64,000 bases of DNA from Halieaceae bacterium. Its GTDB lineage: Bacteria > Pseudomonadota > Gammaproteobacteria > Pseudomonadales > Halieaceae. Position 1 is the first letter of the stretch. Each line of letters begins with the position of its first letter. Made by a program: the position numbers and the translations under genes. The notes beneath the pieces were generated by a model. It searched no databases. It saw nothing but the letters and a program-made list of their open reading frames with translations, and was not told the DNA's origin. The stretch is from positions 1 to 64,000 of the forward strand of contig CACNSR010000013.1 of the NCBI GenBank assembly GCA_902623175.1, written 5' to 3'. Positions 16,196 to 42,043 of the stretch are shown one piece after another.

Positions 16196-16205
16196 TGTCC
16201 GTACT
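16196..16205 (+). promoter_or_regulatory. Candidate GntR operator (site 1)
   Basis: TGTCCGTACT matches 8 of 10 bases of the palindrome TGTCCGGACA found at several promoters in this window. A possible -10 element TACTAT overlaps it at 16202-16207. It lies in the divergent region between the amidohydrolase and the first CoA-transferase. Confidence 0.45.
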
Positions 16206-16213
16206 ATTTATAC

Positions 16214-16246
16214 ATTGAGCAATAAATTTTATGTATTGAGCAATAA
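16214..16246 (+). repeat. Direct repeat of ATTGAGCAATAA, 21-bp period
   Basis: Two identical 12-mers occur at 16214-16225 and 16235-16246. The 21-bp period equals two helical turns. Each copy contains an ATTG-N2-CAAT inverted repeat. This is the arrangement expected for a dimeric regulator binding cooperatively on one DNA face, directly upstream of the CoA-transferase gene at 16267. Confidence 0.6.
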
Positions 16247-16266
16247 CTTCATCTGAGGAGCAAAAC

Positions 16267-17460
16267 ATGTCTCAATCGCGACCTCTGGAGGACCTGCGGG
16301 TCGTCGAGCTAGGGCAACTGTTGGCTGGTCCTTTTGCGGGCACTGTGCTCGGTTACTTCGGCGCCGAGGTAATCAAAGTGGAACCTCCTACGGGCGACCC
16401 CATCCGCCAATGGCGTGAGGTTCGCAACGGCATGTCGCTGTGGTATCACTCGCTGGCGCGAAACAAGAAGAGCGTGACGCTCGATTTGAAATCAGAGCGC
16501 GGTCGGGAGCTTGCTTTTGACCTTCTGACAAAAGCAGACGTAGTCATAGAGAACTTTCGGCCGGGTGCCATGGAGAGCTGGGGACTCGGCCCCGATCTAG
16601 TGAAGGAGAAGAACCCGGGCATCATCTACGCGCGTATCTCGGGTTACGGCCAGAGCGGTCCCTTTTCCGAAAAACCCGGCTATGCCTCTGTTACGGAAGG
16701 CTATGGTGGCTTTCGCTACATCAACGGCGAGCCCGGCAAGGCACCAGTGCGCCCAAACATCTCGCTTGGCGATACCGTGGCTGCGATTCACGCCGCATTG
16801 GGAGTGGCGTTTGCCATTATCGAGCGCAATAAAAGTGGAAAGGGCCAAGTGGTCGATGTGGCCCTGTACGAATCGATTTTCAACCTGCTAGAGGGGATCG
16901 TGCCTGAATTCGACGGCGCTGGGGTTGTACGGGAACCGTCAGGCACCACGATCACCGGCATCGTGCCAACCAATACGTATCTCTGCTCGGACGGCAAACA
17001 CGTTGTGATTGGCGGCAACGGTGATTCCATCTTCAAGCGCCTGATGACCGAAGCTGGTCGCGAGGACATGGCGAACGACCCTGAACTGGAGCACAACCAA
17101 GGTCGGGTCATTCACGAGCAAAAGATCGACGCCGCGCTCGCCAAGTGGTGCCATGAGCACCCCTCTGCTGAGATTATTAGCAAGCTGGAGGCGGCCAGAG
17201 TACCGGTTGGCCCAATTTACAGCGTGGAAGACATGATGACTGATCCACATTACATCGCTCGCGGGATGTTCGAGACGGTTGAAATCGATGGAGAACCACT
17301 AAAGATCCCCGCAATAATGCCCAAGCTCTCTGACACACCGGGCCGCACCGACTGGCCTGGTGCAAAAATCGGACAGCACAACACCGAGATCTTGGGCGAA
17401 TTGCTTGGCCTTTCCGCGGAGGACCTAGACAGACTCAGCGCAGACGGCGTGACCTGCTGA
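16267..17460 (+). CDS. CaiB/BaiF family III CoA-transferase (first of pair)
   Basis: This is a 397-residue family III CoA-transferase, which moves CoA between acyl-CoA and a free carboxylate through an aspartyl-CoA anhydride intermediate. The N-terminal VVELGQLLAGPFAGTVLGYFGAEV-type region and VIKVEPPTGDP are diagnostic, and the likely catalytic Asp lies in SLGDTVAA near residue 169. A good ribosome site (GAGGAG) precedes the ATG. A second CoA-transferase gene follows after 10 bases in the same direction, so they are probably co-transcribed and may form a hetero-oligomer or act on consecutive substrates. The acyl substrate is unknown. Confidence 0.92.
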   Translation: MSQSRPLEDLRVVELGQLLAGPFAGTVLGYFGAEVIKVEPPTGDPIRQWREVRNGMSLWYHSLARNKKSVTLDLKSERGRELAFDLLTKADVVIENFRPGAMESWGLGPDLVKEKNPGIIYARISGYGQSGPFSEKPGYASVTEGYGGFRYINGEPGKAPVRPNISLGDTVAAIHAALGVAFAIIERNKSGKGQVVDVALYESIFNLLEGIVPEFDGAGVVREPSGTTITGIVPTNTYLCSDGKHVVIGGNGDSIFKRLMTEAGREDMANDPELEHNQGRVIHEQKIDAALAKWCHEHPSAEIISKLEAARVPVGPIYSVEDMMTDPHYIARGMFETVEIDGEPLKIPAIMPKLSDTPGRTDWPGAKIGQHNTEILGELLGLSAEDLDRLSADGVTC

Positions 17461-17470
17461 ACCTGCCTTT

Positions 17471-18640
17471 ATGAAACTCGAAGGACTAACTGTTCTTGAT
17501 TTATCACTGTTCTTGCCGGGCCCAGCCGCCACGCAGTTAATGGCGGACCACGGCGCCAGGGTGATCAAAGTGGAAAACCCGCGAGCGCCGGAGCCTACAA
17601 GGTCCGCGGCGGCGTTCCCTTGGAAACAAGGCGGCAAGACGGTGATGTTTCGCAACACTCAGCGCGGCAAAGAGAGTATCGCCCTGGATTTGAAGACAGA
17701 GGCCGGCAAACATGGCCTCCTCGCTCTAGCTAGCAAGGTCGACGTGGTGGTTGAAGCCTTCCGACCCGGTGTCGCAAAGCGTTTAGGGATCGACTACGCA
17801 TCACTGTCTGCCGACAACCCTGGTCTCGTCTACTGTTCTATTTCCGCCTTCGGGCAAACGGGACCATGGCGAGATCGTCCCGCCCATGACACCGCCACTG
17901 TGGCCGCCGCTGGCGTTCTCGATGTCACGCGTTCTCCTGAGGGCGATAGTGGGCCCGCAATTATTGGAGTGCCTATCGCCGATATGCTCTCTTCCTACTT
18001 GGCGCTGTCAGGGGTTTTGATGGCCCTCAATCGGCGCCATACCACGGGCAAGGGTGATTTCGTAGACATCAGCATGTTTGAATCAGTACTCGCAGCCAGC
18101 CCCAATATTATGGGACCCGTATTTGGCGGCGATAAGGCCCCCGAGCGACTGCAAGAGCGCACTCACGGCGGCAACGCCATGCTCAACATCTATCAAACGG
18201 GCGATGGCCAATATCTGGCGTTGGGTGGCGGAGAGCATAAATTTGTTGAAGCGCTCTTCAACGGTCTCGGCCGGCCAGAATTCATTGCTGACGTGACAGG
18301 TCCCGCTGGCGAGGGACACTGGGAAGCGATTGCATACTTGAGAGAAACTTTCCGTACTCGGTCTCGAAGCGACTGGGAGAGTTGGTTTGATAACCGCGAT
18401 ATCTGCTGGAGCCCAGTTGTGTCGCTCTACGAGGCATGGCAATCAGAGCATGTCCTCGAGCGAGGCATGCGGTTTATCGACGACGAGGGCAATGATCACA
18501 TCGGTTCAGCGATCAAATTCGCGGCTGAGCCTGCAAAAATAAGCACTCGGTTACCCAATATTGGTGAACAAACAGCCCAAATTCTTGACGAGCTAGACTT
18601 GACCGAAGCCGATCGTAAAGCGATATTGGACGGGTTATAG
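17471..18640 (+). CDS. CaiB/BaiF family III CoA-transferase (second of pair)
   Basis: This 389-residue protein is homologous to the upstream gene and starts MKLEGLTVLDLSLFLPGPAATQLMADHGARV-like, the family N-terminus. The likely catalytic Asp is in GVPIADML near residue 167. The two tandem proteins are too different to be a recent duplication. Family members include formyl-CoA, carnitine and succinyl-CoA transferases; specificity cannot be read. A perfect TGTCCGGACA palindrome begins six bases after its stop codon, apparently belonging to the promoter of the next gene. Confidence 0.92.
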   Translation: MKLEGLTVLDLSLFLPGPAATQLMADHGARVIKVENPRAPEPTRSAAAFPWKQGGKTVMFRNTQRGKESIALDLKTEAGKHGLLALASKVDVVVEAFRPGVAKRLGIDYASLSADNPGLVYCSISAFGQTGPWRDRPAHDTATVAAAGVLDVTRSPEGDSGPAIIGVPIADMLSSYLALSGVLMALNRRHTTGKGDFVDISMFESVLAASPNIMGPVFGGDKAPERLQERTHGGNAMLNIYQTGDGQYLALGGGEHKFVEALFNGLGRPEFIADVTGPAGEGHWEAIAYLRETFRTRSRSDWESWFDNRDICWSPVVSLYEAWQSEHVLERGMRFIDDEGNDHIGSAIKFAAEPAKISTRLPNIGEQTAQILDELDLTEADRKAILDGL

Positions 18641-18645
18641 TTCAA

Positions 18646-18655
18646 TGTCCGGACA
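18646..18655 (+). promoter_or_regulatory. GntR operator candidate (site 2, perfect palindrome)
   Basis: TGTCCGGACA is an exact 10-bp palindrome in the gap before the TonB-receptor gene. A TATAGT -10-like hexamer lies just upstream at 18636-18641, so the site would cover the transcription start and suit repression. Confidence 0.65.
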
Positions 18656-18756
18656 ACAAGGCGTTCGCGGTGTACCTTCAGCTGATCTGAAGCTGAGGGA
18701 AAACTGTAAACACCCATAATCATGGCCCTGTGTGGCCTTTAATAAGGAGGCTACCC

Positions 18757-21336
18757 ATGAGGAGCACCCCAGTCAGCCGGCGCCAAAAGGTTCTGGCTTC
18801 TCTTCCATTGACCGCAGCAGTATCTGTCGCACTTTCCACGACGACGCTGCTACTCCCTTCCACTGCATCCGCTCAGTTGGAAGAAGTCGTTGTAACGGCT
18901 CGTGCGCGGGCCGAATCTTTGCAAGACGTCCCTAGCACTGTTTCAGCGTTTACAGCGGGCCAAATTAAAGATATGGGAATACAGCGAGCTGAGGATTTTA
19001 TCTCCCAAACGCCGGGGGTGAGTTTTGTAAACACAGTAGAGACTGGGGATTCTTCTGTTTCAATTCGCGGTATGACTGGGGCACGTGATGCAGAGACAAA
19101 CTTTGCTCTGATTATTGATGGCATCCTCTACATCAACACCTATGCGTTCAACAGGGAATACGCAGACCTCGAGCAAATAGAAATTCTTAAAGGCCCACAA
19201 GGGGCCTTATATGGGCGCTCAGCTGCCGCAGGCGCAATAATTATGTCTACGAAAAAACCCTCTCAGGAATTTGAGGCAGAAGTAAGAGCGGGGTTCGCAG
19301 AAGACAGCACTTATACTGGATTGGCAACGGTATCAGGCCCCTTGGGTGATAACGTGGCCGGCCGATTAACCGTAGATTACCGCAGTACGGATGGCTTTTA
19401 TTACAACTCTTTCCTTGACGACAGCGTCGTAGACGATGCTGAGAACTATGCGGTACAAGGACGAATCGTCATGGATCCTCGCGACGATTTATCAATTGAC
19501 ACAAAGATTCGGTACGGCAAGTCAGAAGCCGCTGCGATCACCTTTAACGCTGCATTCGAATTGCCGCCTTTTGTTCCATTTGGGACTCCGGGCTCTGAAT
19601 CTTTCTACCAGGATGTGAATACCCATGAGTTCATATTCGCGGGCAACGTGCGGCCCGTAAATGAACAGGACGTCCTTGAGGTCAGCGTAAAGGCTGACTT
19701 TGAAATGGATTGGGCCACAATGAGTGCTTGGGCGTTTTACAGCGATACCGAGGATACATTCATAGCTGACGGCACATCAGGCGCGTTCGGCTTTTACGGC
19801 GGCACTGCCGCATGTATCAACTCTTTGGATGCCCTCACCCCTTCTTATACCCCTAACGTCCCTGGCGGCGTGACCGCTATGCCAGCGCCCACCTTTATCT
19901 TTGGCTCTGCGCCTGGCGCACAAGTTCTCCCGCCTTACAGTCCCTCCACATGTGATGGTTACCAGTATCAGGAGCGATTCCAGAGAGACCTTAGTATGCA
20001 AGTCCAGCTTACCTCGCCAGGAGATCAGCGTTTGAGATGGCAAGCGGGTGTCTATCTCCTTGATATTGAGAGGTATCAGGCAGTTTCACAGTTGCGCGAC
20101 GATGGCACGAACTGGCCCAATCCAGCTGGCAATGTGCCTCGCTCAATTTATAACCAATTTACAGATGCCATGGTAAACGACACATTCGACACAGAAACGT
20201 TCGCCCTTTATGGCTCAATTAACTTCGACGTTACAGAAGCCTTAGAATTGTCTGTTGCTTTGCGCTATGACAGTGAAAAACGGACAGTTACAAACGGAGT
20301 GCCCTCTCCAGCAGATGGGGCATTGAGCACCAATATTGATTACTGCGGCGGCCAGTGCACTCTCAACGGGCAGCCCTTGCCCGGCTCTCCACTAAATCCC
20401 GGCTTCGTAAATTTTGACGACTTCACTGTGTCCGCACGAATGCCGGGTAATACCAAAACCTTCGACCAACTTCAGCCAAAGGTCAGCTTAACGTGGGACC
20501 TTAACGATGATTCTACTATTTACGGAAGTTGGGGAGTCGGATTCAAGGCTGGCGGGTTTAACAACACTGGCGCTAACCAAATCGTAGACTATTACCTGGT
20601 TCAGAACGGCGGCGCTCTAATCGCGCCCCCTGATGTCATCCGAAAGGAGACTTCTAGCTCCTTTGAGCTGGGTTTTAGGTCTACTCTCCTAGATGGAAAC
20701 TTGACCCTTAATGGAGCCGTTTTTCAGACTGACGTAGACGATATGCAGTTCTTTGAGTTCTTTGTAGGCCCATTCGGACTGCTGCGAACCGCCGAAAACA
20801 TCGACGAAGTCTCCCTAAGCGGGTTTGAGCTCAGTGCAGCGTGGGCGGTCACAGATAATCTTCGGATTGACGCAGGGTACTCCGAAGTTGACGGCGAGAT
20901 TGACGTCAACAATCTCCGTCCCTACACCGCAGGTAACGAGGTGCCAAACAACCCGGAGTTCACGGCTAACGCAGCGATCCAGTACACCATGCCACTTGGC
21001 AACCTGGAACTGTTCGGGCGTCTTGAGTACTCCTACAAGGGCGACACCTGGTACCACACAGTCCAGGACGATGTTCTCCCAGCCACCTTGTTCGGCGGTC
21101 CTCCAGCTAATTATGGCCAGACCAATGGCCAGGGCGGAACAATGGTCGACGCCTATGGTCTGACAAACTTGAGACTCGGTCTCAGAGGTGACAACTGGAG
21201 CGTGACCGCGTTTGCTCGCAATCTGACCGATGAAGAATTCGTTGCTGAGGTTATCCTCGCACCTGAGTTTGGCGGTGCATTTGTCGCTCCTGGCACTCAG
21301 CGACGAGTTGGCGTTGAGATGTCGTACAGTTTTTAA
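18757..21336 (+). CDS. TonB-dependent receptor of the catabolic island
   Basis: This is an outer-membrane receptor. The start at 18757 is preferred because AGGAGG at 18745-18750 has ideal spacing; the longer ATG at 18730 lacks one. The product is 859 residues with a signal peptide (about 1-38, ending ASAQ), a TonB box LEEVVVTAR, a plug domain (about 50-165) and a C-terminal barrel ending MSYSF. This architecture is common in marine and sphingomonad receptors for carbohydrates or organic compounds as well as siderophores. No Fur box is seen; instead a perfect TGTCCGGACA lies upstream. It may import the substrate of the nearby catabolic genes, which is inference. Confidence 0.93.
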   Translation: MRSTPVSRRQKVLASLPLTAAVSVALSTTTLLLPSTASAQLEEVVVTARARAESLQDVPSTVSAFTAGQIKDMGIQRAEDFISQTPGVSFVNTVETGDSSVSIRGMTGARDAETNFALIIDGILYINTYAFNREYADLEQIEILKGPQGALYGRSAAAGAIIMSTKKPSQEFEAEVRAGFAEDSTYTGLATVSGPLGDNVAGRLTVDYRSTDGFYYNSFLDDSVVDDAENYAVQGRIVMDPRDDLSIDTKIRYGKSEAAAITFNAAFELPPFVPFGTPGSESFYQDVNTHEFIFAGNVRPVNEQDVLEVSVKADFEMDWATMSAWAFYSDTEDTFIADGTSGAFGFYGGTAACINSLDALTPSYTPNVPGGVTAMPAPTFIFGSAPGAQVLPPYSPSTCDGYQYQERFQRDLSMQVQLTSPGDQRLRWQAGVYLLDIERYQAVSQLRDDGTNWPNPAGNVPRSIYNQFTDAMVNDTFDTETFALYGSINFDVTEALELSVALRYDSEKRTVTNGVPSPADGALSTNIDYCGGQCTLNGQPLPGSPLNPGFVNFDDFTVSARMPGNTKTFDQLQPKVSLTWDLNDDSTIYGSWGVGFKAGGFNNTGANQIVDYYLVQNGGALIAPPDVIRKETSSSFELGFRSTLLDGNLTLNGAVFQTDVDDMQFFEFFVGPFGLLRTAENIDEVSLSGFELSAAWAVTDNLRIDAGYSEVDGEIDVNNLRPYTAGNEVPNNPEFTANAAIQYTMPLGNLELFGRLEYSYKGDTWYHTVQDDVLPATLFGGPPANYGQTNGQGGTMVDAYGLTNLRLGLRGDNWSVTAFARNLTDEEFVAEVILAPEFGGAFVAPGTQRRVGVEMSYSF

Positions 21337-21351
21337 ATAGGCTCATTAAAA

Positions 21352-21372
21352 AAGCGGGGCTTTGCCCCGCTT
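21352..21372 (+). terminator. Bidirectional intrinsic terminator
   Basis: A 9-bp GC-rich stem (AAGCGGGGC with GCCCCGCTT) has a TTT loop at 21361-21363. A long A run precedes it and a T run follows, so it can stop transcription from both the TonB-receptor gene and the convergent SDR gene. Confidence 0.9.
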
Positions 21373-21426
21373 TTTTTTCAGGTATTTTGCGCCGTCTTCA
21401 TAAGTCACAAAGCTCTGACGGCAATT

Positions 21427-23959: not shown

Positions 23960-25021
23960 CTACCCAACCTGCAAATCGGGAAGAACCTCCTCACCAAATC
24001 GTTCAATACCGGCAACAAAATCAGGCCAGCTGAAGAGCATCCCATCAATACCTGTTTTCTGTGCTATCGCGTCTATACGCTGCCGAATTGTGTTGGCGCT
24101 GCCATAGATGACCGGTATACCCATAAATGCCATATTGCCGCTCTCTACATCTTGATCCAGAGCTGCTTTAAGTTGATCCGCAGTGCCGCCAGTGTTGGTA
24201 TCGAGGCTGGCGCTTGCCAGAATATTGCTAATAGCACCTTGATCAGCCAATTCGATAATTTGACGGACTTGAGCCTGAGCCATTTCGTCGGTGTCAGCCA
24301 AAATCATGTGGAATAGCGCATAGACACCCACTTTTCGACCGCTTGCCGCTGACTTCACTCTAATGTCCTCTACCGACCTCACAAGATTATCTTCACTCGT
24401 TAGGACGAACTGATGATCTGCATGCTTTGCGACGAATGCGCGTCCAGCAGGCGACTGCCCTGCGCATACAAGCGGTATGGGGTTGGCCGGCGTCGGCAGC
24501 ACTGAACAGTCGTCTATCTTGAAATACTCACCCTCCCAACTCGCCCGGCCCGACTGCCATAACGCTTGCAGTATCTCTACATACTCCGCGGCATAATCAT
24601 AGCGACGCTGGTAATGATCATCCCCTGGCCACATTCCCATTTGGGCATACTCTGGTCGATTCCATCCCGTGACGATATTTAAACCACATCGGCCACCGCT
24701 AATGTCGTCAATCGTGGCGACCATTCGGGCAACGACAGCGGGATGTTGGCTCAGGATGGAGATTGATGGAAAGAGGCCAATACTGCTTGTCGCAGAGGCT
24801 ATCCCCGCCATTAATGTAAACGATTCAAGACAGCTGTCCCAATAACCGGTTTCGCCACCGAATCCCCTAAACTTCATCATTGAAAGGACAAAATCTAGCC
24901 CGTGCTTTTCAGCAGCGAGCGATATCGCCAAGTTGTGCTGAAAGGTCGGCTCATAGATGGGACTGCCTGCAGACGGAATGTAACCATTACTGCCATTGGG
25001 CAAGAAAACGCCAAACTTCAT
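23960..25021 (-). CDS. RutA-like flavin-dependent monooxygenase (LLM class)
   Basis: This is a luciferase-like F420/FMN-type monooxygenase related to RutA, the pyrimidine oxygenase. The ATG at 25021 (MKFGVFLPNG) follows an AGGTGGG site; the upstream GTG at 25039 is less likely. The 353-residue product shares with RutA the segments DFVLSMMKFRGFGG, ESFTLMAGIA, ISGGRCGLNIVTGW and PEYAQMGMWPGDDHYQRRYDYAAEYV-like. Family members oxidise N-heterocycles or C-S and C-N bonds using reduced FMN. No rutB-F cluster or dedicated flavin reductase is adjacent, but a nitroreductase-type flavoprotein lies 19 kb away. The substrate is unknown. Confidence 0.87.
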   Translation of the reverse strand: MKFGVFLPNGSNGYIPSAGSPIYEPTFQHNLAISLAAEKHGLDFVLSMMKFRGFGGETGYWDSCLESFTLMAGIASATSSIGLFPSISILSQHPAVVARMVATIDDISGGRCGLNIVTGWNRPEYAQMGMWPGDDHYQRRYDYAAEYVEILQALWQSGRASWEGEYFKIDDCSVLPTPANPIPLVCAGQSPAGRAFVAKHADHQFVLTSEDNLVRSVEDIRVKSAASGRKVGVYALFHMILADTDEMAQAQVRQIIELADQGAISNILASASLDTNTGGTADQLKAALDQDVESGNMAFMGIPVIYGSANTIRQRIDAIAQKTGIDGMLFSWPDFVAGIERFGEEVLPDLQVG

Positions 25022-25415
25022 TTTGAACCCACCTCGCACTCATTCATGTGGCCATCCGACCACCATATAAAACCGTCTGTACCCTTCACTAACCTTACAG
25101 GCACCCATAGAACAGAGCAAAAAATTCTACTGAGGACGCGAACCGGTAGCGCAGAATCAACTTCCTTCAGCGTTGTAGAGTGATGCTGAGAGTGCTGTCA
25201 CAGAGACTGGTTTGCGGTTAGTGCAGGCCACTGTCAGAATGCTCCTACAGCATTTGCGCGACTCTAATTAAATAAGAGATTCGTCGGCCTGATATCCGCG
25301 CCAATAGCGACTCATCGGGGATACGGGTACAGTGATGTGCCCATGCGCCAACTTCACCCCCAGACAAGAGCCCGGACGCTCCTGGCGCCCCGCAAAAATG
25401 CGATGAGGTGCACCG
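25022..25415. other. Intergenic region between divergent genes, no gene seen
   Basis: This 394-bp gap separates the RutA-like gene and the acyl-CoA ligase, which diverge. It holds their promoters by position. I find no TGTCCGGACA-type site, Fur box, hairpin or credible ORF in it. Confidence 0.5.
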
Positions 25416-27014: not shown

Positions 27015-27044
27015 GGCCGGTATCGCGTTTTTGTAACCGCCCCA

Positions 27045-29947: not shown

Positions 29948-29963
29948 TGTTATCTCCCCTCGC

Positions 29964-32024: not shown

Positions 32025-32117
32025 GATTGGCCTCCCCTTGTTATTGATCTTCTATTGATCGCAACGCGAGTCGCAGGGTTCAGAAAACTGCGAGTGCTCA
32101 GTGGCACTCAAAACAAT

Positions 32118-32127
32118 TGACCGGACA
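32118..32127 (+). promoter_or_regulatory. GntR operator candidate (site 3)
   Basis: TGACCGGACA matches 9 of 10 positions of the core and has AAT/ATT-type flanks. It ends two bases before an extended -10 element (TG at 32130-32131, TACAAT at 32133-32138) reading towards the CoA-transferase, so a bound repressor would block that promoter. It also lies upstream of the divergent HyuA gene. Confidence 0.6.
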
Positions 32128-32223
32128 TTTGCTACAATTTCGCTTCCAACTCAAAGATGCACCAATCTGCAGACAGGTGCAAGGTATCCTCCTTCCCATA
32201 TCCGAGATTTGCTGGAGCCCACC

Positions 32224-33408
32224 ATGATGAAACCCCTCGCCGGCATTCGTGTACTGGCCATCGAACAGTTTGGCGCGGGGCCCTATGGGTCAATGTATCT
32301 CGCCGAACTAGGAGCCGAGGTGATCAAGATCGAGAATCGCGCCACGGGCGGTGACCCATCGCGTCAGTCAGGGTCAGTCACTCTCGCCGATGACGACAGC
32401 GCCTACTTTCAGGCATTTAACCTCGCCAAAAAAAGCGTGACGCTGAACCTGAAAAGCGACGAGGGCCGCGAGCTGTTTCATGAACTGGTCAAAAAGAGCG
32501 ACGTGGTCTGGAACAACCTGCGCGGCAGCCAGCCTGCCAAGATGGGCCTGACCTATGACGATCTTAAAGGCGTCAAGCCCGACATCATCTGCACTCATAT
32601 CTCGGCCTACGGGCGGGATAATGACCGTGCTGACTGGCCGGGCTATGACTACCTGATGCAAGCCGAGTGCGGGTTTTTATCGGTGACTGGCGAGCCAGGC
32701 ACGCCGCCGTCCCGATTTGGCTTGTCGATGATCGATTTCATGACCGGAGTCGTAGCGGCGCTCGGCTGCGTCTCAGCATTGTTGGCTCGCCCGGGCCAAG
32801 GTGGACGCGACGTTGATGTTAGCTTGTTCGATGTGGCGCTTCATCAGCTGACCTATCCCGGCACTTGGTACCTTAACCACGGTATCGAGACAGGCCGCGT
32901 CGCGCGCTCGGCCCACCCCTACAATACGCCAGTGCAACTTTACAAAACCCACGACGGCTGGATTTTCGTCATGTGCATGACCGACAAGTTTTGGCAGCTG
33001 CTGCTGGAACGCTCGGAGCACACAGAACTGGCAGATGATCCGCGCTTTAATTCCATGGCCGGGCGCGCGAAAAACCGCGATGCCTTGACCGAGGTTCTAG
33101 ATGAGATCTTTCAGACACAGAACACCGACCACTGGTTTGGAAAGCTGCAGACCTACATTCCCGTTGCGCCGGTATACGACTTACCCAACGCGCTAGACAA
33201 TCCCTTCGTAGCCTCCATCGGCATGATGCAAAACATGACCCACCGCGAGTTCGGCGAGTACCGGGGCCTGAGCAATCCCATCAAGATCGATCAGCAGCGC
33301 CTGCAGACCAACTGCGGCCCCGGCCTCGGGGCGGATAATCAGGAAATTCTCGGTGAGGAACTGGGCGCGGGAGATCTTGAGGACTTGGCCGCACGAGGGG
33401 TGATCTAG
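32224..33408 (+). CDS. CaiB/BaiF family III CoA-transferase
   Basis: This is the third family III CoA-transferase of the island. I prefer ATG at 32224 over the GTG at 32101, because the first 41 residues of the longer frame are not family-like and would place the operator inside the gene. The product is about 394 residues and starts MMKPLAGIRVLAIEQFGAGPYGS. The likely catalytic Asp is in LSMIDFMTG near residue 173. The reaction class is CoA transfer to a carboxylate. In the regulon hypothesis it could be the itaconate-type transferase, but specificity is not shown. It converges on the alpha/beta-hydrolase gene with only 10 bases between stops. Confidence 0.9.
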   Translation: MMKPLAGIRVLAIEQFGAGPYGSMYLAELGAEVIKIENRATGGDPSRQSGSVTLADDDSAYFQAFNLAKKSVTLNLKSDEGRELFHELVKKSDVVWNNLRGSQPAKMGLTYDDLKGVKPDIICTHISAYGRDNDRADWPGYDYLMQAECGFLSVTGEPGTPPSRFGLSMIDFMTGVVAALGCVSALLARPGQGGRDVDVSLFDVALHQLTYPGTWYLNHGIETGRVARSAHPYNTPVQLYKTHDGWIFVMCMTDKFWQLLLERSEHTELADDPRFNSMAGRAKNRDALTEVLDEIFQTQNTDHWFGKLQTYIPVAPVYDLPNALDNPFVASIGMMQNMTHREFGEYRGLSNPIKIDQQRLQTNCGPGLGADNQEILGEELGAGDLEDLAARGVI

Positions 33409-33418
33409 GCACTATTGA

Positions 33419-34222
33419 CTAATGAGCCCCCAGGAAGTCAAACAGGATCTTGCCGAAGGCAATTTTCTCTTCTTTGCCAGCCACCACGTGGGCGACATCA
33501 TCCATTGTGACCCCCACCGAGTTTCTGAGCCCCTCCTCTAGAGGCTTGGTAGTCCGAGGTCCGGTGATAATGTCCTGCCCCGCGTGAATCACCAGTGTCG
33601 GCGCCTCGATATCGCTAAGGTGGGGCCGAATATCGTGTCCCCGGCAGGCTTGCACAAAGCGCAGGTGGGTTTGGATACGCCCCTCGAGAGCACCCCATAC
33701 ACCGCCGCTACCGAGCAATTTTTCGCGGTTGGCATTGTAGTAATCGGGCTTGAACGACAGGGAGGCCACCATCGACTGGAAGGCATGGAATCCCGCATGT
33801 TCGTGGATGTCACCAAAGGCCTGAAGGTGGTCCGAGAGCATTGGATCGGCCCAGGTCCAGCACCCCATATTCACCATGCAGCGGACTAGATCAGGCCGCT
33901 TAAGCGCTATCCACTGACCAATACACGCACCAATGCCCACCAGCCCTACGAAGTACACCGACTTCATATTGAGGTAGTCCAAAAGGCCACTGATGTCATC
34001 GGCAAACAATTGCGTAGAGGGCTCCATCGAGTAGTCATCGGTTGACTCACCCAGCCCACGGTAATCAATGATGACGGTGGAGAACTGATCGGTCATACCC
34101 CGTGCCAGATAATGATGCCTGCCGTGACAAAAGGTATCCCAGCCGCCAATGTAAACGGCTGGCGGCCCATCACCATGCACCTCGTAGTACATGTCGTGTC
34201 CGTTGATCTGGGCAATAGGCAT
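33419..34222 (-). CDS. Alpha/beta-hydrolase fold protein lacking the nucleophile serine
   Basis: This is a 267-residue alpha/beta-hydrolase-fold protein starting MPIAQINGHDMYYEVHG. The candidate acid D217 (HAGQD) and base H245 (DDVAHVV) are in place. The nucleophile elbow reads LVGIG at residues 94-98: the helix register to the following KRPDLV places Gly96 where Ser, Cys or Asp would normally stand. C100 is nearby but out of register. It is therefore either inactive as a classic hydrolase or uses other chemistry. It lies downstream of an isochorismatase-type gene on the same strand, spaced 76 bases. Confidence 0.85.
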   Translation of the reverse strand: MPIAQINGHDMYYEVHGDGPPAVYIGGWDTFCHGRHHYLARGMTDQFSTVIIDYRGLGESTDDYSMEPSTQLFADDISGLLDYLNMKSVYFVGLVGIGACIGQWIALKRPDLVRCMVNMGCWTWADPMLSDHLQAFGDIHEHAGFHAFQSMVASLSFKPDYYNANREKLLGSGGVWGALEGRIQTHLRFVQACRGHDIRPHLSDIEAPTLVIHAGQDIITGPRTTKPLEEGLRNSVGVTMDDVAHVVAGKEEKIAFGKILFDFLGAH

Positions 34223-34298
34223 GGTGTTCTCCTAAGGGCTAATCAAATTCAGTGTTGTTCTGTTAAATTGGCAAGCTCTGAGTGACCAAATAGATCCC

Positions 34299-34916
34299 TT
34301 AGAGTCCGTTGATATGTGCCAGCACGCTCTCCAGATCAGTGACATCGGCATAGCGTCTACCCACGTCCCGAAGGTTGCTCGCATGGGCTTCTTCGTCCTG
34401 ATCACCACAGCAATCCGCAGGGACGATGGTGCGGTAGCCGGCTGAGAAGCTGTCCACGATCGAGGCGCGCACGCACCCAGAGGTTGTGCAACCAGTGATA
34501 ATGGTGGTGTCGACGCAATGCGTGACCAGCCACGGCTTGAGAGGCGTCTCATAAAAAATAGAGGGCGCCGTTTTTATAAACTGAAAGATGTACTCATCGT
34601 CGCGGATTCGCGGGTCGAGCTCTGTGCAGGGATGCCCGTGATAGAAGCTGCCGTCATAAAGTGAGTCGATCTTCCAATAGGTCATCTCGTCGGGACCCCC
34701 CCAAGATACAGCGCAGGAAGCGACCGGAATGTCCTTGGCCTTGCATGCCGCGAGCAATACCGCCGTGTTATCCACTGCGCGCTGCACGTGATCGCTGCGG
34801 CCCAGTGGATTGCTGGCGTCGGTAAAGCCCTGCTGAAAGTCGACCATGACGAGCGCTGGCCGCTCACCAAATCCAATATCGCGCTGGCCGTAGCCAGCCT
34901 CTGCAAACTTATCCAT
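34299..34916 (-). CDS. Isochorismatase-family hydrolase (N-carbamoylsarcosine amidase-like)
   Basis: This is a 205-residue cysteine hydrolase of the isochorismatase superfamily. The candidate catalytic triad is D26 (VMVDFQQ), K115 and C148, within the diagnostic GCTTSGCVRAS segment that is typical of the N-carbamoylsarcosine/maleamate amidase branch. It probably hydrolyses an amide, carbamoyl or maleamate-like bond. It is divergent from another isochorismatase gene at 35003, with a degenerate operator-like palindrome between them, and upstream of the alpha/beta-fold gene. Confidence 0.92.
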   Translation of the reverse strand: MDKFAEAGYGQRDIGFGERPALVMVDFQQGFTDASNPLGRSDHVQRAVDNTAVLLAACKAKDIPVASCAVSWGGPDEMTYWKIDSLYDGSFYHGHPCTELDPRIRDDEYIFQFIKTAPSIFYETPLKPWLVTHCVDTTIITGCTTSGCVRASIVDSFSAGYRTIVPADCCGDQDEEAHASNLRDVGRRYADVTDLESVLAHINGL

Positions 34917-34970
34917 GAGTAGTCGGGTCCCGTTGCCTCGATCACGTCAGTCACGCAATATGACTTAGAA

Positions 34971-34980
34971 TGTACGGATG
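34971..34980 (+). promoter_or_regulatory. Degenerate GntR operator candidate (site 4)
   Basis: TGTACGGATG matches 7 of 10 core bases, and the flanked form matches 12 of 15 of the extended consensus. It lies in the 86-bp divergent region between the two isochorismatase genes, 23 bases before the right-hand ATG. It is weaker than the other sites. Confidence 0.35.
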
Positions 34981-35002
34981 TTTCAAGGACGGCGATCCCG
35001 CT

Positions 35003-35686
35003 ATGAGCCAACCCAGCTTTATTGACAACTTCAGTCAGCAGTTTTCCCTCGAGCCCAGTCGCACAGCCCTGCTAGTCATCGACATGCAGAACGCCACGGG
35101 CAATCGCAACATGGGGCTGGGCAAACTCCTGGCTGAACAGGGCAAGATCGAGTCGGCGCAATATCGCTTTGATCGCATTGATAACCTGCTGATCCCCAAC
35201 ATCCAAAAACTCATCGCAGGGTTTCGCGAGGCCGGCGCGCACGTGATCTGGATTACCTATGGGGCCAACGCAGCAGATGCCAGCGATGCGCCCCACCACA
35301 TTGCCCCTATCATCAAAGCCACCAACAACATTGCGGGTCAGCCCGAACACGAGGTGGTCGATGCGCTGAAGCCCGGACCAGGCGATCTGGTGTTGAACAA
35401 GACAACGCAGGGAGCGTTCCGCTCGACTGCGCTGGACAGCTCGCTGCGCGCGCTGGGTGTCGATTCTGTGGTCTCTACCGGTGTCTCCACCAACAACTGT
35501 GTCGCCATGACGTCGATGGAAGCTTGCGATCTGCAATATCGAGTGGTGGTGATCAGCGACGCCACCGGCACCGATAGCGAGGAGATGCAGGAAGCCACGC
35601 TGACCATGCTGAAACGACTTTGGTCCCGCGTCCTGACAACCGACGAGGTCCTTAGCGAACTCAGCGCTGGGGTAAGCCGCACCTGA
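35003..35686 (+). CDS. Isochorismatase-family hydrolase (second)
   Basis: This is a 227-residue cysteine hydrolase. I chose ATG at 35003 (MSQPSFIDNF); the longer ATG at 34970 would run through the operator-like site. The triad residues are D27 (LLVIDMQN), K133 and C166 in GVSTNNCV, the RutB/nicotinamidase-like variant rather than the GCTTSGC variant of the divergent gene. The difference suggests a different substrate. A DMT transporter gene follows closely in the same direction. Confidence 0.92.
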   Translation: MSQPSFIDNFSQQFSLEPSRTALLVIDMQNATGNRNMGLGKLLAEQGKIESAQYRFDRIDNLLIPNIQKLIAGFREAGAHVIWITYGANAADASDAPHHIAPIIKATNNIAGQPEHEVVDALKPGPGDLVLNKTTQGAFRSTALDSSLRALGVDSVVSTGVSTNNCVAMTSMEACDLQYRVVVISDATGTDSEEMQEATLTMLKRLWSRVLTTDEVLSELSAGVSRT

Positions 35687-35721
35687 CTAGCGTCCAGAAC
35701 CCCGGTCTGATCGGCGGGCTG

Positions 35722-36600
35722 TTGGTAGCCATCGGGGCCGTCTTGCTAGCTGCCAAGGGGCTGTTCGCAAAAACTCTGTATGACATGGGCCTCAGCTTTC
35801 ACGACGTCGCGGCCGTTCGCTCGGTACTGGCGGTGCCGGGCTTCGCGCTGCTGGCGTGGCTGTCTCGGACTAAAAATCCAGCGAAGCGGGTCGCCACCTG
35901 CCGGCGCAACGACCTACTTCTCGCCCTCTTTGCGGGATTCCTCTGCTATTACCTTGGGGCACTGGCGAACTTTTATGCCCTGACCATCATCGACGCCAGC
36001 GTCGAGCGGCCGTTGCTGTTTGCTTACCCCATCTTCGTGGTCATCATTACCACGCTCATTACGCGGCAACCGCCCTCGGCGAGAGTTGTGCTCGCATTGC
36101 TGCTAACCACGCTGGGGGTCGCGCTAGTCACCGGCGCCTTGAATGCTCGACTCTCGGCCAGCCAATGGTCCGGCATGGCTTGGATCTTGTTCTGCTCGAT
36201 GAGTATTGCCATTTACACCCTGATCAGCGGTGAGCTCACCCAGAGGCTGGGCAGCGGCCTATTTACCCTAGCTGCCATGACCGCAGCCGCACTCGGCATG
36301 GCAATCCACTATCAAATTTTCGCCGGCTGGCAGAACGTCGATCTGTCCGGGCCCGCATGGCGGACGCTCGCAGCACTCGTGGTCTTCTCTACCGTTTTAC
36401 CGCTATTCCTGATGGCTGAAGGCGTGCGCAGGGTCGGTGCTTCCAAAGCCTCTCTGATCAGCACACTGGGACCACCCGCCACCGCTATCATGGCGCAGGA
36501 ATTGACCGGCGAGATTCTTACCCCAGCCCAGTGGCTGGGCATTGCATTGGTCTTGATCGGCGTGATGGCGCTCGAGGTCAGGCGACACCCACCCACCTGA
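35722..36600 (+). CDS. DMT-superfamily (EamA) transporter
   Basis: This is a 10-helix drug/metabolite transporter of about 292 residues with two EamA repeats. Hydrophobic segments cover most of the length, with a basic interhelical loop KNPAKRVATCRRND near residue 55. The given start is TTG, which would begin directly inside the first helix. The frame remains open upstream, and a CTG at 35683 that overlaps the isochorismatase stop (CTGA) could add 13 residues, so the true start is unsettled. It may export or import an intermediate of the island. Confidence 0.85.
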   Translation: MVAIGAVLLAAKGLFAKTLYDMGLSFHDVAAVRSVLAVPGFALLAWLSRTKNPAKRVATCRRNDLLLALFAGFLCYYLGALANFYALTIIDASVERPLLFAYPIFVVIITTLITRQPPSARVVLALLLTTLGVALVTGALNARLSASQWSGMAWILFCSMSIAIYTLISGELTQRLGSGLFTLAAMTAAALGMAIHYQIFAGWQNVDLSGPAWRTLAALVVFSTVLPLFLMAEGVRRVGASKASLISTLGPPATAIMAQELTGEILTPAQWLGIALVLIGVMALEVRRHPPT

Positions 36601-36641
36601 AAACCGTGCCCAGATTGCTTTGAGTTGGTGTTTTGGGTAAA

Positions 36642-36651
36642 TGTCCGTACA
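36642..36651 (+). promoter_or_regulatory. GntR operator candidate (site 5)
   Basis: TGTCCGTACA matches 9 of 10 core bases. It overlaps a -10 element (TACAAT at 36648-36653) spaced 17 bases from a -35-like TTGGTG (36625-36630), so bound protein would block this promoter of the TauD-type gene. Confidence 0.6.
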
Positions 36652-36680
36652 ATTAGAGTATTACGTCTAGAGGTGTCCCC

Positions 36681-37526
36681 ATGTATGCCACACGTCCACT
36701 AAGCCGAACCTTTGGTGCAGAGGTACTAGATTTTCAACTTACTGGTGACCCTCGTAGCGAGGACACCCGGGCTATCAAAGAGCTTTGGGCTGAGCACAAA
36801 CTGTTGCTATTCCGTAATCAGTCATTTGATGAAGCGGCGTTGGTCGGGTTCAGCCGGGAATTCGGCGACCTTGAAATTCACGTGCGTGAGGAATACCTCT
36901 CACCAGAGCATCCCGAGATCCTGTATGTATCCAACGTTAAAAAAGACGGACGTCTCCTCGGGATCCTAGCCGATAGCGAAGTAGGTTGGCACTATGATCA
37001 GATCTACTTACCGAGGCCTGCTGTAGGGTCGCTGCTGATGGCCGACACTCTTCCTCCTGAGGGGGGCAATACTGAATTCGCAGACATGTGCGCAGCCTGG
37101 GACGCACTGCCAGAAGAGACACAAACTAGGCTAGATGGTTGTCTGGCGAACCAGTCATACGAAGCTTTCAATAAGGCCTACAGCGTCCCAACGAACAAAA
37201 AGCAAAAAGCGCTATCCCCGGACATTCATCACCCTATTGTGCGCACACATCCAGTGACACACCGCAAGGCGCTGTATCTCTGTCCTGGAATGACCACTGA
37301 AATTGTGGGTTGGGACCCTGAAAAGAGCGCCGAGATGCTAGACTTTTTGTTTGATTGGACCACCCGACCGGAGTTCGTCTACTCGCACTCTTGGCAACCA
37401 GGCGATGCCTTAATGTGGGATAACGCCTGTACCATGCATCGTCGAGATCCGTTCGACCCAGAGCACGCGCGGCTGATGAAGCGGACTACCATTCTACCAC
37501 CTGCAGATTTGGCTGTTCCATTCTAA
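36681..37526 (+). CDS. TauD/TfdA-family Fe(II)/2-oxoglutarate dioxygenase
   Basis: This is a 281-residue dioxygenase. The facial-triad residues are H104 and D106 (WHYDQIY) and a distal H253 (NACTMHRRD), with R264 a candidate 2-oxoglutarate carboxylate anchor. Length and motifs match TauD/TfdA. Such enzymes hydroxylate sulfonates, phenoxyacetates, betaines or related small acids at the expense of 2-oxoglutarate and oxygen; the substrate here is unknown. An AGAGGTG site precedes the ATG. It sits after the transporter and is preceded by an operator-overlapped promoter. Confidence 0.93.
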   Translation: MYATRPLSRTFGAEVLDFQLTGDPRSEDTRAIKELWAEHKLLLFRNQSFDEAALVGFSREFGDLEIHVREEYLSPEHPEILYVSNVKKDGRLLGILADSEVGWHYDQIYLPRPAVGSLLMADTLPPEGGNTEFADMCAAWDALPEETQTRLDGCLANQSYEAFNKAYSVPTNKKQKALSPDIHHPIVRTHPVTHRKALYLCPGMTTEIVGWDPEKSAEMLDFLFDWTTRPEFVYSHSWQPGDALMWDNACTMHRRDPFDPEHARLMKRTTILPPADLAVPF

Positions 37527-38680: not shown

Positions 38681-38817
38681 TTTTCCTCCTACGGTTAATT
38701 GCTTCTAGGTACCAATATCCGCCTCACGGGCGATTCAACGTGGACTCTGCGAACAGGTCCTTTGTTGCGCTCGCACTGCAAATCTTGGTCTCAACATGCT
38801 TCGCTCCCGGGGCTCCG

Positions 38818-40236
38818 TCAGGCCGCCCTGTTGGCTTGTGTTCGCAGCAACGCCGTCAACTCTGCTACGTCAGTCATTCCGTCGAGGTTTAGCATTGCAC
38901 TCCATAACTGCTCTGCTATGTCCGCTGGAATAGTGAGCTCACAATTATCGAGGAATTTGGCCTTCACTTGCTCAGCGGAGAGTAGCTGCCCCTCCGCACC
39001 CCGATTCACCGCCTCAAAGTGCTCCAGCTCGGTACCGTCGGTGAGAATGATTTTAACACCGCCCGAAAAAGCGTTGGGGTAGCGTGATCTGTCGTCATGG
39101 GTGTATTCGATGCACTGGGCGAGCGACAGTACCTCCGGATCCATCCGTGCGGCGTCTTCCAAATCGGCCAGTGTGAAGCTACCTTTGCAGAGCGCGGTAG
39201 CCACTGCGTAGGGCGCGCTGAATTTGGCATCGTACTCACTTTGGGGCGCTCGTTTGGTTTCAATTGGCTCCACCACCACACCAAACTGACGTTCGTCGAG
39301 ACCAATGGTGACCGATGCGATCTTATCTGGCGTTAAACCGTGCGCTTGCCGCAATGCCAACGCGGCGTCTACGAGCGCGTGGTTAAAGTGACAGATGGGA
39401 TAGGGCTTGATAGCGACCGTGCGCAACGCCCAGTCGTGAAAAAGCTGGGATGACACTGCCTCTGTGTCCACCGAGGTACCCGGCGCATAAAGCGCATAAA
39501 AACCAAAGCGCCCACCGTAGGCCTCGCCCGGCCCTTTAAACCCAGAGACGCCCATCGCCGCCGCTTGAAGCGCCGCAGACGCTGCCCATCCTGGATGCAG
39601 GCGCTTGGTCCAACTGCCATCGTCCAAAAACGCCATGCTGCCGCTACTTAGACTGAGCGCTACGCCTTGAGCCCTCACCAACGCGTCGCTGTCGGCCTCC
39701 ATCATGCGTGCCGCGGCAACGGTCGCGCCAAATACGCCAACAACACCCGTGGGGTGAAAGCCCACCTGCTGGAACACGCCGCCCGCTTGCGTACCTAACA
39801 TAGCGTCGACTTCGACCGCCATCAGCGCGGCAAGAAGCAGTTCTGCTCCACTCAGGCCGCGCTGTTCAGCCAGAGCCAATACTGCGGGGAAAGCACTGGC
39901 GGAGCAATGCACGACTGATGCCAGATGGGTGTCGTCGTAGTCCAACCCGTGCACTAGCAATCCGTTCATCAAAGCTGCGTCGCGCAACGACACCGTCGTG
40001 GACTGGCCAATAATGGTCGATGCACCGTTACTGCCCAGCAGATTCAGCGCATCCAGGGAGGTGTGCGCAAAATCGTAAGCACGAGACGCAAAGGCGATCC
40101 CGACGGCGTCTGCCAGACACAGCTTGAGGTAGTCCCATACGTCTTGCGGAACTTTATCTTGCTGCAACGCAAGGACGCGATCAGCAATCGCGCGACTCAA
40201 AGGTGCGGTTTGATGGGTTAGCGGTGATGCCTGCAT
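38818..40236 (-). CDS. MmgE/PrpD-family protein
   Basis: This is a member of the family of 2-methylcitrate dehydratase and cis-aconitate decarboxylase. I chose ATG at 40236 (MQASPLTHQTA) with GGAG in front, giving 472 residues; the longer ATG at 40269 would overlap the operator. The family block GLDYDDTHLASVVHCSASAFPA-type region (about 80-100) and GFHPTGVVGVFGA near residue 155 are seen. It lies next to the CitE-like lyase. In Pseudomonas aeruginosa an MmgE/PrpD gene occurs in the itaconate degradation cluster together with such genes; this is recalled, not tested. Confidence 0.9.
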   Translation of the reverse strand: MQASPLTHQTAPLSRAIADRVLALQQDKVPQDVWDYLKLCLADAVGIAFASRAYDFAHTSLDALNLLGSNGASTIIGQSTTVSLRDAALMNGLLVHGLDYDDTHLASVVHCSASAFPAVLALAEQRGLSGAELLLAALMAVEVDAMLGTQAGGVFQQVGFHPTGVVGVFGATVAAARMMEADSDALVRAQGVALSLSSGSMAFLDDGSWTKRLHPGWAASAALQAAAMGVSGFKGPGEAYGGRFGFYALYAPGTSVDTEAVSSQLFHDWALRTVAIKPYPICHFNHALVDAALALRQAHGLTPDKIASVTIGLDERQFGVVVEPIETKRAPQSEYDAKFSAPYAVATALCKGSFTLADLEDAARMDPEVLSLAQCIEYTHDDRSRYPNAFSGGVKIILTDGTELEHFEAVNRGAEGQLLSAEQVKAKFLDNCELTIPADIAEQLWSAMLNLDGMTDVAELTALLRTQANRAA

Positions 40237-40250
40237 CAGGAACTCCGGAA

Positions 40251-40262
40251 ATGTCCGGACAT
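40251..40262 (+). promoter_or_regulatory. GntR operator candidate (site 6, perfect 12-bp palindrome)
   Basis: ATGTCCGGACAT is an exact 12-bp palindrome 15 bases before the MmgE/PrpD start. A -10-like TATTAT on the minus strand (40261-40266) abuts it, so the site covers the transcription start of this gene. Confidence 0.65.
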
Positions 40263-40312
40263 AATACACTAACCGTGTGAGGATGCCGACTGACGAGCCG
40301 GCTATTGGCCTG

Positions 40313-41200
40313 TCAGCTCAACAAAGAGTCCGCCAGCGCGAGAATCCGCTGACTCTTGTAAACAATCGGGTAGTCGATAAAGTAACCGTCCAACTGGATG
40401 GAGGCCGAGCCCTCTGCCTCTGCAGCCTCAAACGCAGCCACAACGGCCCGGGCGTGGGCAATCTCCTCCTCGGAAGGCGTGAACACCTTATGCGCTAAGG
40501 GAATCTGGGCGGGGTGGATACAGAGCTTACCGCCAAAACCGAACTGCTTTCCGTGCCGGGCAGACTGCAAAAACCGCTCGTCATCTTTGATTTGCAACAC
40601 CACCGTGTCGATCGGCGCCTCGAGATTGCCCAGACGCGCCGCATGAGACAGCTTCGCTCGCGCATAAGCCAACACCGACTCATCCTCGTTCCACTCGTAA
40701 TTCAGATCCAGCGTATAGTCCCCGCCGCCAAACGCCATACGCTTGATGCGACTGTCGGAGGTGGCAATCTTCCTCGCCCCCTCAACACCTGCAGCCGTCT
40801 CAATAATGGGCATTAAATCCAGACTACCCACCGCTATACCCTGTGCCGTTTCTGCCGCAGCCAACAGGTTTTCCAGTTGATTGAGGCAAGCCCGCGACTC
40901 CACCTTGGGCAACACCACGCCATCGAGCCATGGCCCGACGGTAGCTTTAATGTCTTCAGCGCAGTAGGGCGTGTCGATGCTGTTCACTCGAACATAGTGC
41001 CGGACGCTGCTGTTAGGGCGGGCACAAAAGGCATTCACTACGCACTGTCGCGCCGCAGGCTTCTCGCTGATCGCCACCGCATCCTCCAGATCCAGAATGA
41101 CTGCATCGGCGCCAACTTCAAAAACCTTCTCGACACGCCGTGAATGGTTCGCGGGGGTGAACAGAAAACTGCGAATGGGTGTGAAATCGTCGGGGGTCAT
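40313..41200 (-). CDS. CitE/HpcH-HpaI-type CoA-ester lyase (citramalyl-CoA lyase-like)
   Basis: This is a 295-residue TIM-barrel lyase that cleaves 3-hydroxyacyl-CoA or citramalyl-type CoA esters with a divalent metal. The motifs VILDLEDAV, YVRVNS, VVLPKVES, IIETAAG, FGGGDYTLDL and FGGKLCIHPAQI follow the family order, and the Asp/Glu metal ligands are in place. It lies directly downstream of the GntR regulator gene (1 base apart) and 76 bases before the MmgE/PrpD start region on the same strand. The (S)-citramalyl-CoA lyase of itaconate degradation is in this family, so this is the natural candidate in the island. Confidence 0.88.
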   Translation of the reverse strand: MTPDDFTPIRSFLFTPANHSRRVEKVFEVGADAVILDLEDAVAISEKPAARQCVVNAFCARPNSSVRHYVRVNSIDTPYCAEDIKATVGPWLDGVVLPKVESRACLNQLENLLAAAETAQGIAVGSLDLMPIIETAAGVEGARKIATSDSRIKRMAFGGGDYTLDLNYEWNEDESVLAYARAKLSHAARLGNLEAPIDTVVLQIKDDERFLQSARHGKQFGFGGKLCIHPAQIPLAHKVFTPSEEEIAHARAVVAAFEAAEAEGSASIQLDGYFIDYPIVYKSQRILALADSLLS

Positions 41201-41201
41201 A

Positions 41202-42005
41202 TCAGTTGTTCCAGGACCAGTGATCGGCGGTTTGCCAGCCGCGGGTGAACTCGAAGTTATAGCTGAAGTTACTTGCGGGATGTTCAGAGATAGACGCCTC
41301 GAAAATTCGCCCGCGCCCGCCTTGATAGAAACGACTTACGCTGAGCGAGGGCGACCCTGGCTCGACACCTAGGATTGCGGCTTTTTGCTCTGACAGGACG
41401 CCCGCAGTGAGGCGAATCGCAATGTTCTCGATCGATTCCTTAAAGGTTTCGGCTATCATCTCGTATACCGGACGTGAACTCCCACCCAGCCGCTGGGCGA
41501 TCGAGCCGTACTCGGGGATGACATACACATTGGCCAGACAGATCGGCATGCCCTCTTCGCCCAGCGTCCGCAAGCCCGAAATCTGCACCCACTGGTCTCC
41601 CACCTCACAGCCCAACTCTCTAGCCAGAGGTTTGTCCGCCGCAATGCGCTCATCGGAGAGCATTCTAAAAATACTGCTGTCGGGATAACTGAAGAGTTCC
41701 GATGGCGAACGCACCATTTGCACGAACGCAGGAGAAGCCTCGGTGGATAGCACCAGCGTGCCACGGCCCCGCTGTCGCTTCACGAGACCCATGTCTTCCA
41801 GCACACGTAACGCCTCGCGGATCGTATGCCGGCTGGCGTCGAAGCGATCGATCAGCTCTAGTTCGCCGGGTAAAAAGGTGCCCACAGGAAACTTCCCATC
41901 TCGGATACCAGTGAGCAAGGTGTCCGAAATCTGTCGGTACAGCGGCAGTCTATATGAGCTTTGCGCGCCATCTGCCGGCCGCTTTTTTACTTGCTCAACT
42001 TGCAT
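41202..42005 (-). CDS. GntR-family transcriptional regulator with UTRA domain
   Basis: This is a HutC-type regulator of about 267 residues. The start at 42005 (MQVEQVKKRPADG) is chosen because the longer ATG at 42044 would place the palindrome TGTCCAGACA inside the first codons and neither start has a strong ribosome site. The winged helix-turn-helix (about 20-90) reads PLYRQISDTLLTGIRDGKFPVG...SRHTIREALRVLEDMGLVKRQRGRGT, and a UTRA effector domain follows. It probably binds the palindrome found upstream of itself and of neighbouring genes, an inference from site placement. It overlaps the lyase gene's operon and is divergent from the MaoC gene. Confidence 0.92.
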   Translation of the reverse strand: MQVEQVKKRPADGAQSSYRLPLYRQISDTLLTGIRDGKFPVGTFLPGELELIDRFDASRHTIREALRVLEDMGLVKRQRGRGTLVLSTEASPAFVQMVRSPSELFSYPDSSIFRMLSDERIAADKPLARELGCEVGDQWVQISGLRTLGEEGMPICLANVYVIPEYGSIAQRLGGSSRPVYEMIAETFKESIENIAIRLTAGVLSEQKAAILGVEPGSPSLSVSRFYQGGRGRIFEASISEHPASNFSYNFEFTRGWQTADHWSWNN

Positions 42006-42033
42006 GACAGGTCTGAACCCCCCAGACTTAAAT

Positions 42034-42043
42034 TGTCCAGACA
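42034..42043 (+). promoter_or_regulatory. GntR operator candidate (site 7, auto-regulatory)
   Basis: TGTCCAGACA matches 9 of 10 core bases within an 18-bp quasi-palindrome AAATTGTCCAGACATTTT. It lies between the GntR gene and the divergent MaoC gene, so it is placed for autoregulation and control of both sides. Confidence 0.65.

Follow-up and report, generated by a model that had tools for sequence, protein, structure and literature searches.

The 64,000-nucleotide stretch analyzed here (the window; Halieaceae bacterium, GenBank assembly GCA_902623175.1, contig CACNSR010000013.1, positions 1 to 64,000) contains an island of catabolic genes in which a 14-bp palindrome, AATGTCCGGACATT, recurs between genes. 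Sequence comparison makes it very probable that these palindromes are operators of a GntR/UTRA protein encoded within the island, which would repress the island together with its own gene and be released by a pathway intermediate bound at its UTRA domain. The description of the island as a conserved, local and autoregulated HutC-type regulon of Luminiphilus (Halieaceae), with putative binding by the GntR protein, is judged largely right.

A sequence-only reading of this DNA had listed seven copies of a 10-bp palindromic core, TGTCCGGACA, and all seven were found where it had placed them: exact copies at 18646 and 40252, copies with one mismatch at 32118, 36642 and 42034, a weaker copy at 16196 (two mismatches to the 10-mer) and a still weaker one at 34971. 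The copies agree beyond this core, and the motif unit is the 14-bp palindrome. The seven candidate operators are given below as 14-bp units; counts of genomes refer to the conservation set described further on, at up to three mismatches.

16194-16207, between the amidohydrolase gene (minus strand) and the coenzyme A (CoA)-transferase pair (plus strand): candidate operator, three mismatches to the 14-bp palindrome, rank 6 with the matrix described below
18644-18657, before the TonB-receptor gene: candidate operator, exact 10-bp core
32116-32129, between hyuA and the third CoA-transferase gene: candidate operator, 14 letters identical in 17 of 17 genomes
34969-34982, between the two isochorismatase genes: weak candidate operator; of the 17 genomes with a site here, 11 have AATGTACGAACATT
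36640-36653, before the TauD-type gene: candidate operator, 14 letters identical in 20 of 20 genomes
40250-40263, before the MmgE/PrpD gene: candidate operator with one mismatch, present in 29 of 29 genomes
42032-42045, common to the GntR gene and the divergent MaoC gene: candidate operator, present in 28 of 29 genomes

The recurrence of the palindrome was determined without choosing the motif, by scoring every possible palindrome for intergenic matches between 14.4 and 48.0 kb (2,676 intergenic bases). AATGTCCGGACATT ranked first of 16,384 14-bp palindromes, with seven matches against three for the best unrelated one, and TGTCCGGACA ranked first of 1,024 10-bp palindromes, with five matches against two for the next, in agreement with the earlier claim that the palindrome recurs intergenically across the island. 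For this ranking the start codons of five genes (MmgE, GntR, MaoC, third CoA-transferase and second isochorismatase) were assigned manually, which places the sites at these genes in intergenic DNA; the comparison with relatives below does not depend on these settings. In the window AATGTCCGGACATT had 11 matches at up to three mismatches (simulated means 1.6-2.6, largest 5-8) and five at up to two, every one of the five at a gene start. The 10-mer was modestly enriched at up to one mismatch (7 matches; simulated means 1.4-2.5, largest 7-8), and two further one-mismatch copies, at 27513 and 30016, which were absent from the earlier list, both lie within coding sequence. When the whole assembly (2.39 Mb in 65 contigs, 85% complete) was searched at up to two mismatches, half of the 10 matches to AATGTCCGGACATT fell inside one 24-kb stretch of the island; four of the others were within open reading frames (ORFs) and one was intergenic.

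Conservation was analyzed over 900,655 bases, in the window and 28 relatives having a GntR orthologue; 27 of the relatives belong to the genus, and G007 comes from a different one. Site counts exclude G127, G044, G113 and G004, whose homologues are distant (30-36% identity), and G085, which has an orthologue, also stands outside them. Within the syntenic DNA, all 100 matches to AATGTCCGGACATT at up to two mismatches, and 130 of the 153 at up to three, were located in the near-start zone of orthologous genes, which we defined as -350 to +90 of the orthologous start and which covers 18% of the bases. Permuted palindromes, about 300 in number, averaged 2.5 matches in the same DNA, 0.4 of them in the zone (maximum 5). 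The sequence-only reading had named beforehand two outcomes that would speak against it, equal frequency in coding DNA and lack of conservation ahead of orthologous genes; neither occurred, the sites favouring gene starts and being conserved at orthologous genes of the relatives.

The individual sites revealed the same pattern. Those of TauD and hyuA were each a single invariant sequence in all 20 and all 17 genomes, respectively, and around the TauD site the flanks had drifted. The MmgE site was found in every genome with the zone extended to +90, and in only 21 of 29 with a narrower zone (to +20). The copy that the earlier reading placed between the GntR/UTRA gene and the divergent MaoC gene was missing from one genome only. 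On average the site columns held 1.6-2.0 bits of information, compared with 0.4-1.1 for the 30-base flanks. The 34969 site, degenerate in this genome, is a near-perfect palindrome in most relatives. A matrix trained on the relatives, with this genome and G100 excluded, placed the seven sites at ranks 1-6 and 8 among all window positions, rank 7 being position 15178, inside the amidohydrolase gene; five of the seven outscored the highest of 40 simulated windows.

Under the proposed mechanism each half of the palindrome (AATGTCC) would take one DNA-binding domain of a GntR dimer, and the operators would lie at the promoters of the island's main transcription units, including that of the regulator. 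The bound protein would block RNA polymerase until a pathway intermediate, the predicted effector, occupied the UTRA domain. Hexamers resembling -10 elements touch or overlap the site at MmgE (TATTAT), TauD (TACAAT), GntR (TAAAAT), the CoA-transferase pair (TACTAT) and the second isochorismatase (TAGAAT), an arrangement that suits a repressor blocking RNA polymerase. The TauD site has the invariant right half TACAAT in all 20 genomes, and a conserved GTTnG stands at a -35-like position, separated by a 17-base spacer; at MmgE, TATnAT is found in the consensus of 29 genomes.

The position of the sites also bears on whether the GntR protein binds genuine operators but acts as an activator, or with mixed action, which we regard as unlikely. 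The distance from site to start does differ between targets, the centre lying at about -35 for TauD, -98 for hyuA and -107 for the receptor, and overlap with a -10-like hexamer is clear at some promoters only. On the other hand, the TauD, MmgE and GntR sites overlap or touch a conserved hexamer of this kind, a usual place for a repressor, and published work describes NagR and DasR, members of the HutC subfamily, as repressors.

Repression by the GntR/UTRA protein presupposes that it is the protein which recognizes these sites. The regulator gene is the following.

41202-42044, minus strand: GntR/UTRA (HutC-subfamily) regulator; the listed ORF overlaps the operator, and the ATG near 42006 is the likelier start

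Its product has the N-terminal GntR winged helix (PF00392, 61.5 bits, cut-off 27) and the C-terminal UTRA domain (PF07702, 54.7 bits, cut-off 23.8) that define the HutC subfamily, and its best Protein Data Bank (PDB) matches are YvoA and DasR. HutC operators carry GT and AC four bases apart (PMC4494728, available sections); the operator here, T-GT-CCGG-AC-A, follows this GT-N4-AC rule, and the exact GTMTAKAC centre is not kept, CG replacing TA. The sites were linked to GntR because this gene has a site of its own, because a Pfam scan of 29 ORFs around the island gave no other regulator, and because the operator fits the HutC subfamily.

Distribution in the genus was determined in 57 genomes. 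Strict matches to the motif numbered 91 against 16 for a reversed-pattern control in the 29 genomes with a GntR orthologue, and 22 against 32 in the 28 without one, G112 (34% identity) being counted among the latter. GntR and the MmgE gene were found in the same 29 of the 57 genomes (G112 left out). TauD was found in 26, two of them lacking a detected GntR, G073 (70% complete) and G099 (83%); G073 keeps sites though GntR was not found there. The named contigs that match best in GntR are mostly labelled Luminiphilus or Halieaceae, and two of 390 genomes of the order reach an E value of 1e-45, this one and another of the same genus. GntR copies 75-89% identical were also present on contigs labelled Cryomorphaceae (L051), Opitutia (L058) and Nanopelagicales (L064), which are likeliest mis-binned Luminiphilus contigs. 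In G095 the GntR gene (L108, contig C29) matches in two overlapping pieces while the operators there are kept; the gene may carry a frameshift or an assembly error.

Another regulator might be using these sites, such as a second UTRA protein, which this genome encodes at contig C11:55977; binding by the local GntR protein is itself putative. We consider this very unlikely. Three places on C11 are among the matches listed at three mismatches, none of them less than 12 kb from the second UTRA gene, whereas the local GntR gene carries its own site, and G007, from a different genus, has in its whole genome two strict matches, both flanking the GntR orthologue.

Several observations weigh against reading the palindromes as operators of one GntR-repressed regulon. 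Scans for consensus promoters gave no excess (5 against 5.5 expected, and 2 against 2.6), so the promoters described above are proposals; the earlier claim that most copies overlap or abut -10-like hexamers holds for five of the seven copies but finds no support in these scans. Because genomes gain or lose the island as one block, co-occurrence links the sites with the island and not with GntR alone. The isochorismatase site was present in 17 of 19 genomes at up to three mismatches, two relatives having none, and its best-conserved 14 columns are offset by 3-5 bases from the palindrome, which is therefore not clearly the most conserved element there. At the same threshold the CoA-transferase-pair site was present in six of the eight genomes scanned and the TonB-receptor site in five of nine, the other four having none; these two promoters are less consistently marked than the other targets. 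All conservation counts are of sequences, not of independent events, and the blocks of some relatives are near-identical. Finally, at three mismatches the motif is not enriched over the whole genome, which gave 65 matches against 64 for the reversed-pattern control.

That the palindromes are chance matches picked by eye has in its favour that the window contains the 10-mer no more often than shuffles do at up to two mismatches (31 matches, 27.9 expected), and is so strongly contradicted by the unbiased ranking, the footprint in 28 relatives and the out-of-sample matrix that its probability is negligible. The single regulon repressed by GntR that was claimed at the outset retains the support of the conserved sites, of the tracking of sites with GntR in the genus and of the HutC fit, with repression as its predicted part.

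The genes of the island are as follows.

16267-18640, plus strand: two family III CoA-transferase genes (PF02515), gap 14 bp, presumably one operon
18757-21336, plus strand: TonB-dependent receptor gene (Pfam, NCBIfam)
23960-25039, minus strand: RutA-like luciferase-type monooxygenase without an operator of its own; best PDB matches are RutA
28025-32024, minus strand: hyuB and hyuA, hydantoinase/oxoprolinase type (Pfam, NCBIfam, PDB), gap 20 bp, presumably one operon
32101-33408, plus strand: third family III CoA-transferase gene (Pfam), true start probably downstream of the operator
33419-34916, minus strand: isochorismatase-fold hydrolase 1 and an alpha/beta hydrolase (Pfam, gap)
34970-36600, plus strand: isochorismatase-fold hydrolase 2 (likely start 35003) and an EamA transporter (Pfam)
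36681-37526, plus strand: TauD/TfdA-family dioxygenase (Pfam)
38818-40236, minus strand: MmgE/PrpD-family gene, probable start 40236; the listed ORF begins at 40269
40313-41200, minus strand: CitE/HpcH-family lyase, 5 bp after the GntR gene
42103-43763, plus strand: MaoC-type hydratase (RipB/Ich-like) and acyl-CoA dehydrogenase

Short conserved gaps suggest the operons GntR-CitE, MaoC-acyl-CoA dehydrogenase, the CoA-transferase pair, isochorismatase 1-hydrolase, isochorismatase 2-EamA and hyuA-hyuB. The RutA-like gene lies 130-543 bp behind hyuB, in the same orientation, in eight relatives, whereas in the window three genes (AMP-ligase, MaoC and FAS1-type dehydratase; 25416-27949) separate the two. 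Orthologues of this cassette were found in one relative block only, that of G100, which suggests that the cassette was inserted into the ancestral gene order.

The earlier reading had proposed local autoregulation combined with remote targets. The regulator's own gene has a site, as that proposal expected, but all targets lie in one island and none outside it was confirmed. The sole intergenic match of this genome outside the island at up to two mismatches, on contig C26 ahead of a different TonB-receptor gene, was rejected as a target because it is kept only in the closest relatives: among the 26 genus genomes with that gene it has two mismatches in this genome and G100, three in G091 (no GntR found) and G106, and at least four in the other 22. 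Strict matches outside the island of relatives were inspected in 14 chosen stretches; several proved to be island genes on other contigs and some lie inside ORFs. In G078, a one-mismatch palindrome on contig C105 (L123:3123) stands about 45 bp upstream of a gene for an 825-residue TonB-receptor-like protein outside the island, which may be a remote target in that species.

At the edge of the island (45442-48024) the window has pyruvate dehydrogenase E1-type and HMG-CoA-lyase-like genes, which are syntenic in many relatives. A one-mismatch site is present at the HMG-CoA-lyase-like gene in G062 and at the pyruvate dehydrogenase E1-like gene in G102, and the window has none there within four mismatches, indicating that the edge of the regulon differs between species.

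As predicted from gene families, HyuAB and the two isochorismatases, with the RutA-like monooxygenase beside hyuB in eight relatives, may open a nitrogen-containing ring or amide. The carbon skeleton, a branched dicarboxylate, would then be broken down as CoA esters through CoA-transferase, MmgE/PrpD, acyl-CoA dehydrogenase, MaoC hydratase and CitE lyase, a route of the itaconate/methylsuccinate type. A more speculative proposal, somewhat less likely than not, is an undescribed marine pathway for an imide, lactam or ureide that may enter by way of the TonB receptor. These enzymes (in several relatives with the RutA-like monooxygenase) would open its ring, the resulting product would enter this route, and one HutC-type regulator would sense an intermediate. 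Independently of that proposal, the regulon would make a loose set of marine catabolic genes into one co-regulated unit, telling which enzymes likely act together and supplying operators and a regulator with which to find the effector, and hence the substrate. Among the titles listed by literature searches (15 of 766, 15 of 36, 3 of 3 and 6 of 6) none concerns this regulon, subscription papers being thinly covered, so that publication elsewhere is possible; the letters of the palindrome stand in 18 papers, none of them bacterial by its title. The value of the system lies in its uncharacterised pathway and not in its regulatory design, which is standard for the HutC subfamily; as a member of that subfamily the regulon appears new within the literature searched.

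Among known systems, the itaconate/methylsuccinate cluster (ich, mcd, mmgE, ict, ccl) of Pseudomonas aeruginosa and Cupriavidus necator (PMC12290011, available text) resembles the island in the same five enzyme families, all present here: MaoC hydratase, acyl-CoA dehydrogenase, MmgE/PrpD, family III CoA-transferase and CitE-type lyase. The resemblance is one of families: hydratase and lyase are below the equivalog cut-offs (RipB/Ich 199.5 of 340 bits, RipC/Ccl 171.1 of 375), and no other protein of this genome passes that of RipC. Unlike that cluster, the island adds hydantoinase, isochorismatase, TauD and TonB genes. GntR, LysR and "regulator" are absent from the main text of that paper as available, so the regulation of the two is not comparable here. 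The MmgE/PrpD protein, compared without direct alignment to the Pseudomonas isomerase, has the conserved His/Lys motifs, and no tyrosine was seen just before GFHPTG as a possible counterpart of Tyr148, one of the active-site residues of methylsuccinate isomerase; its nearest solved structures are iminodisuccinate epimerase and cis-aconitate decarboxylase. With the Rut pyrimidine pathway the island shares a RutA-like monooxygenase, the RutB-like isochorismatase 2 and a hydrolase with PcaD/RutD-type matches, and HyuA is like the ATP-dependent hydantoinases and caprolactamases (nearest in PDB, N-methylhydantoinase; in NCBIfam, caprolactamase alpha); the scores for RutA (368.3 of 498.3), RutB (85.6 of 377.95) and CapA (551.3 of 1000) are below equivalog cut-offs.

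The regulator itself is closest to NagR (YvoA) of Bacillus subtilis and DasR of Streptomyces, with which it shares the GntR winged helix-turn-helix, the UTRA domain and a GT-N4-AC palindrome. In NagR, Arg48 reads G-4 and Arg38 reads G-5, with Gly69 in the wing (PMC4333415, available sections). The equivalent of Arg48 is Arg72 here, and G-4 is kept in the operator; SRHT and RG(R/L)GT, which include the equivalents of Arg48 and Gly69, are present in all 28 readable rows of the 29 orthologues. In contrast to NagR and DasR, the operator core here is TGTCCGGACA, with CG in its centre and T instead of G at -5, the Arg38 position is occupied by Leu or Met, and the targets belong to an acyl-CoA/amide pathway and not to amino sugar metabolism.

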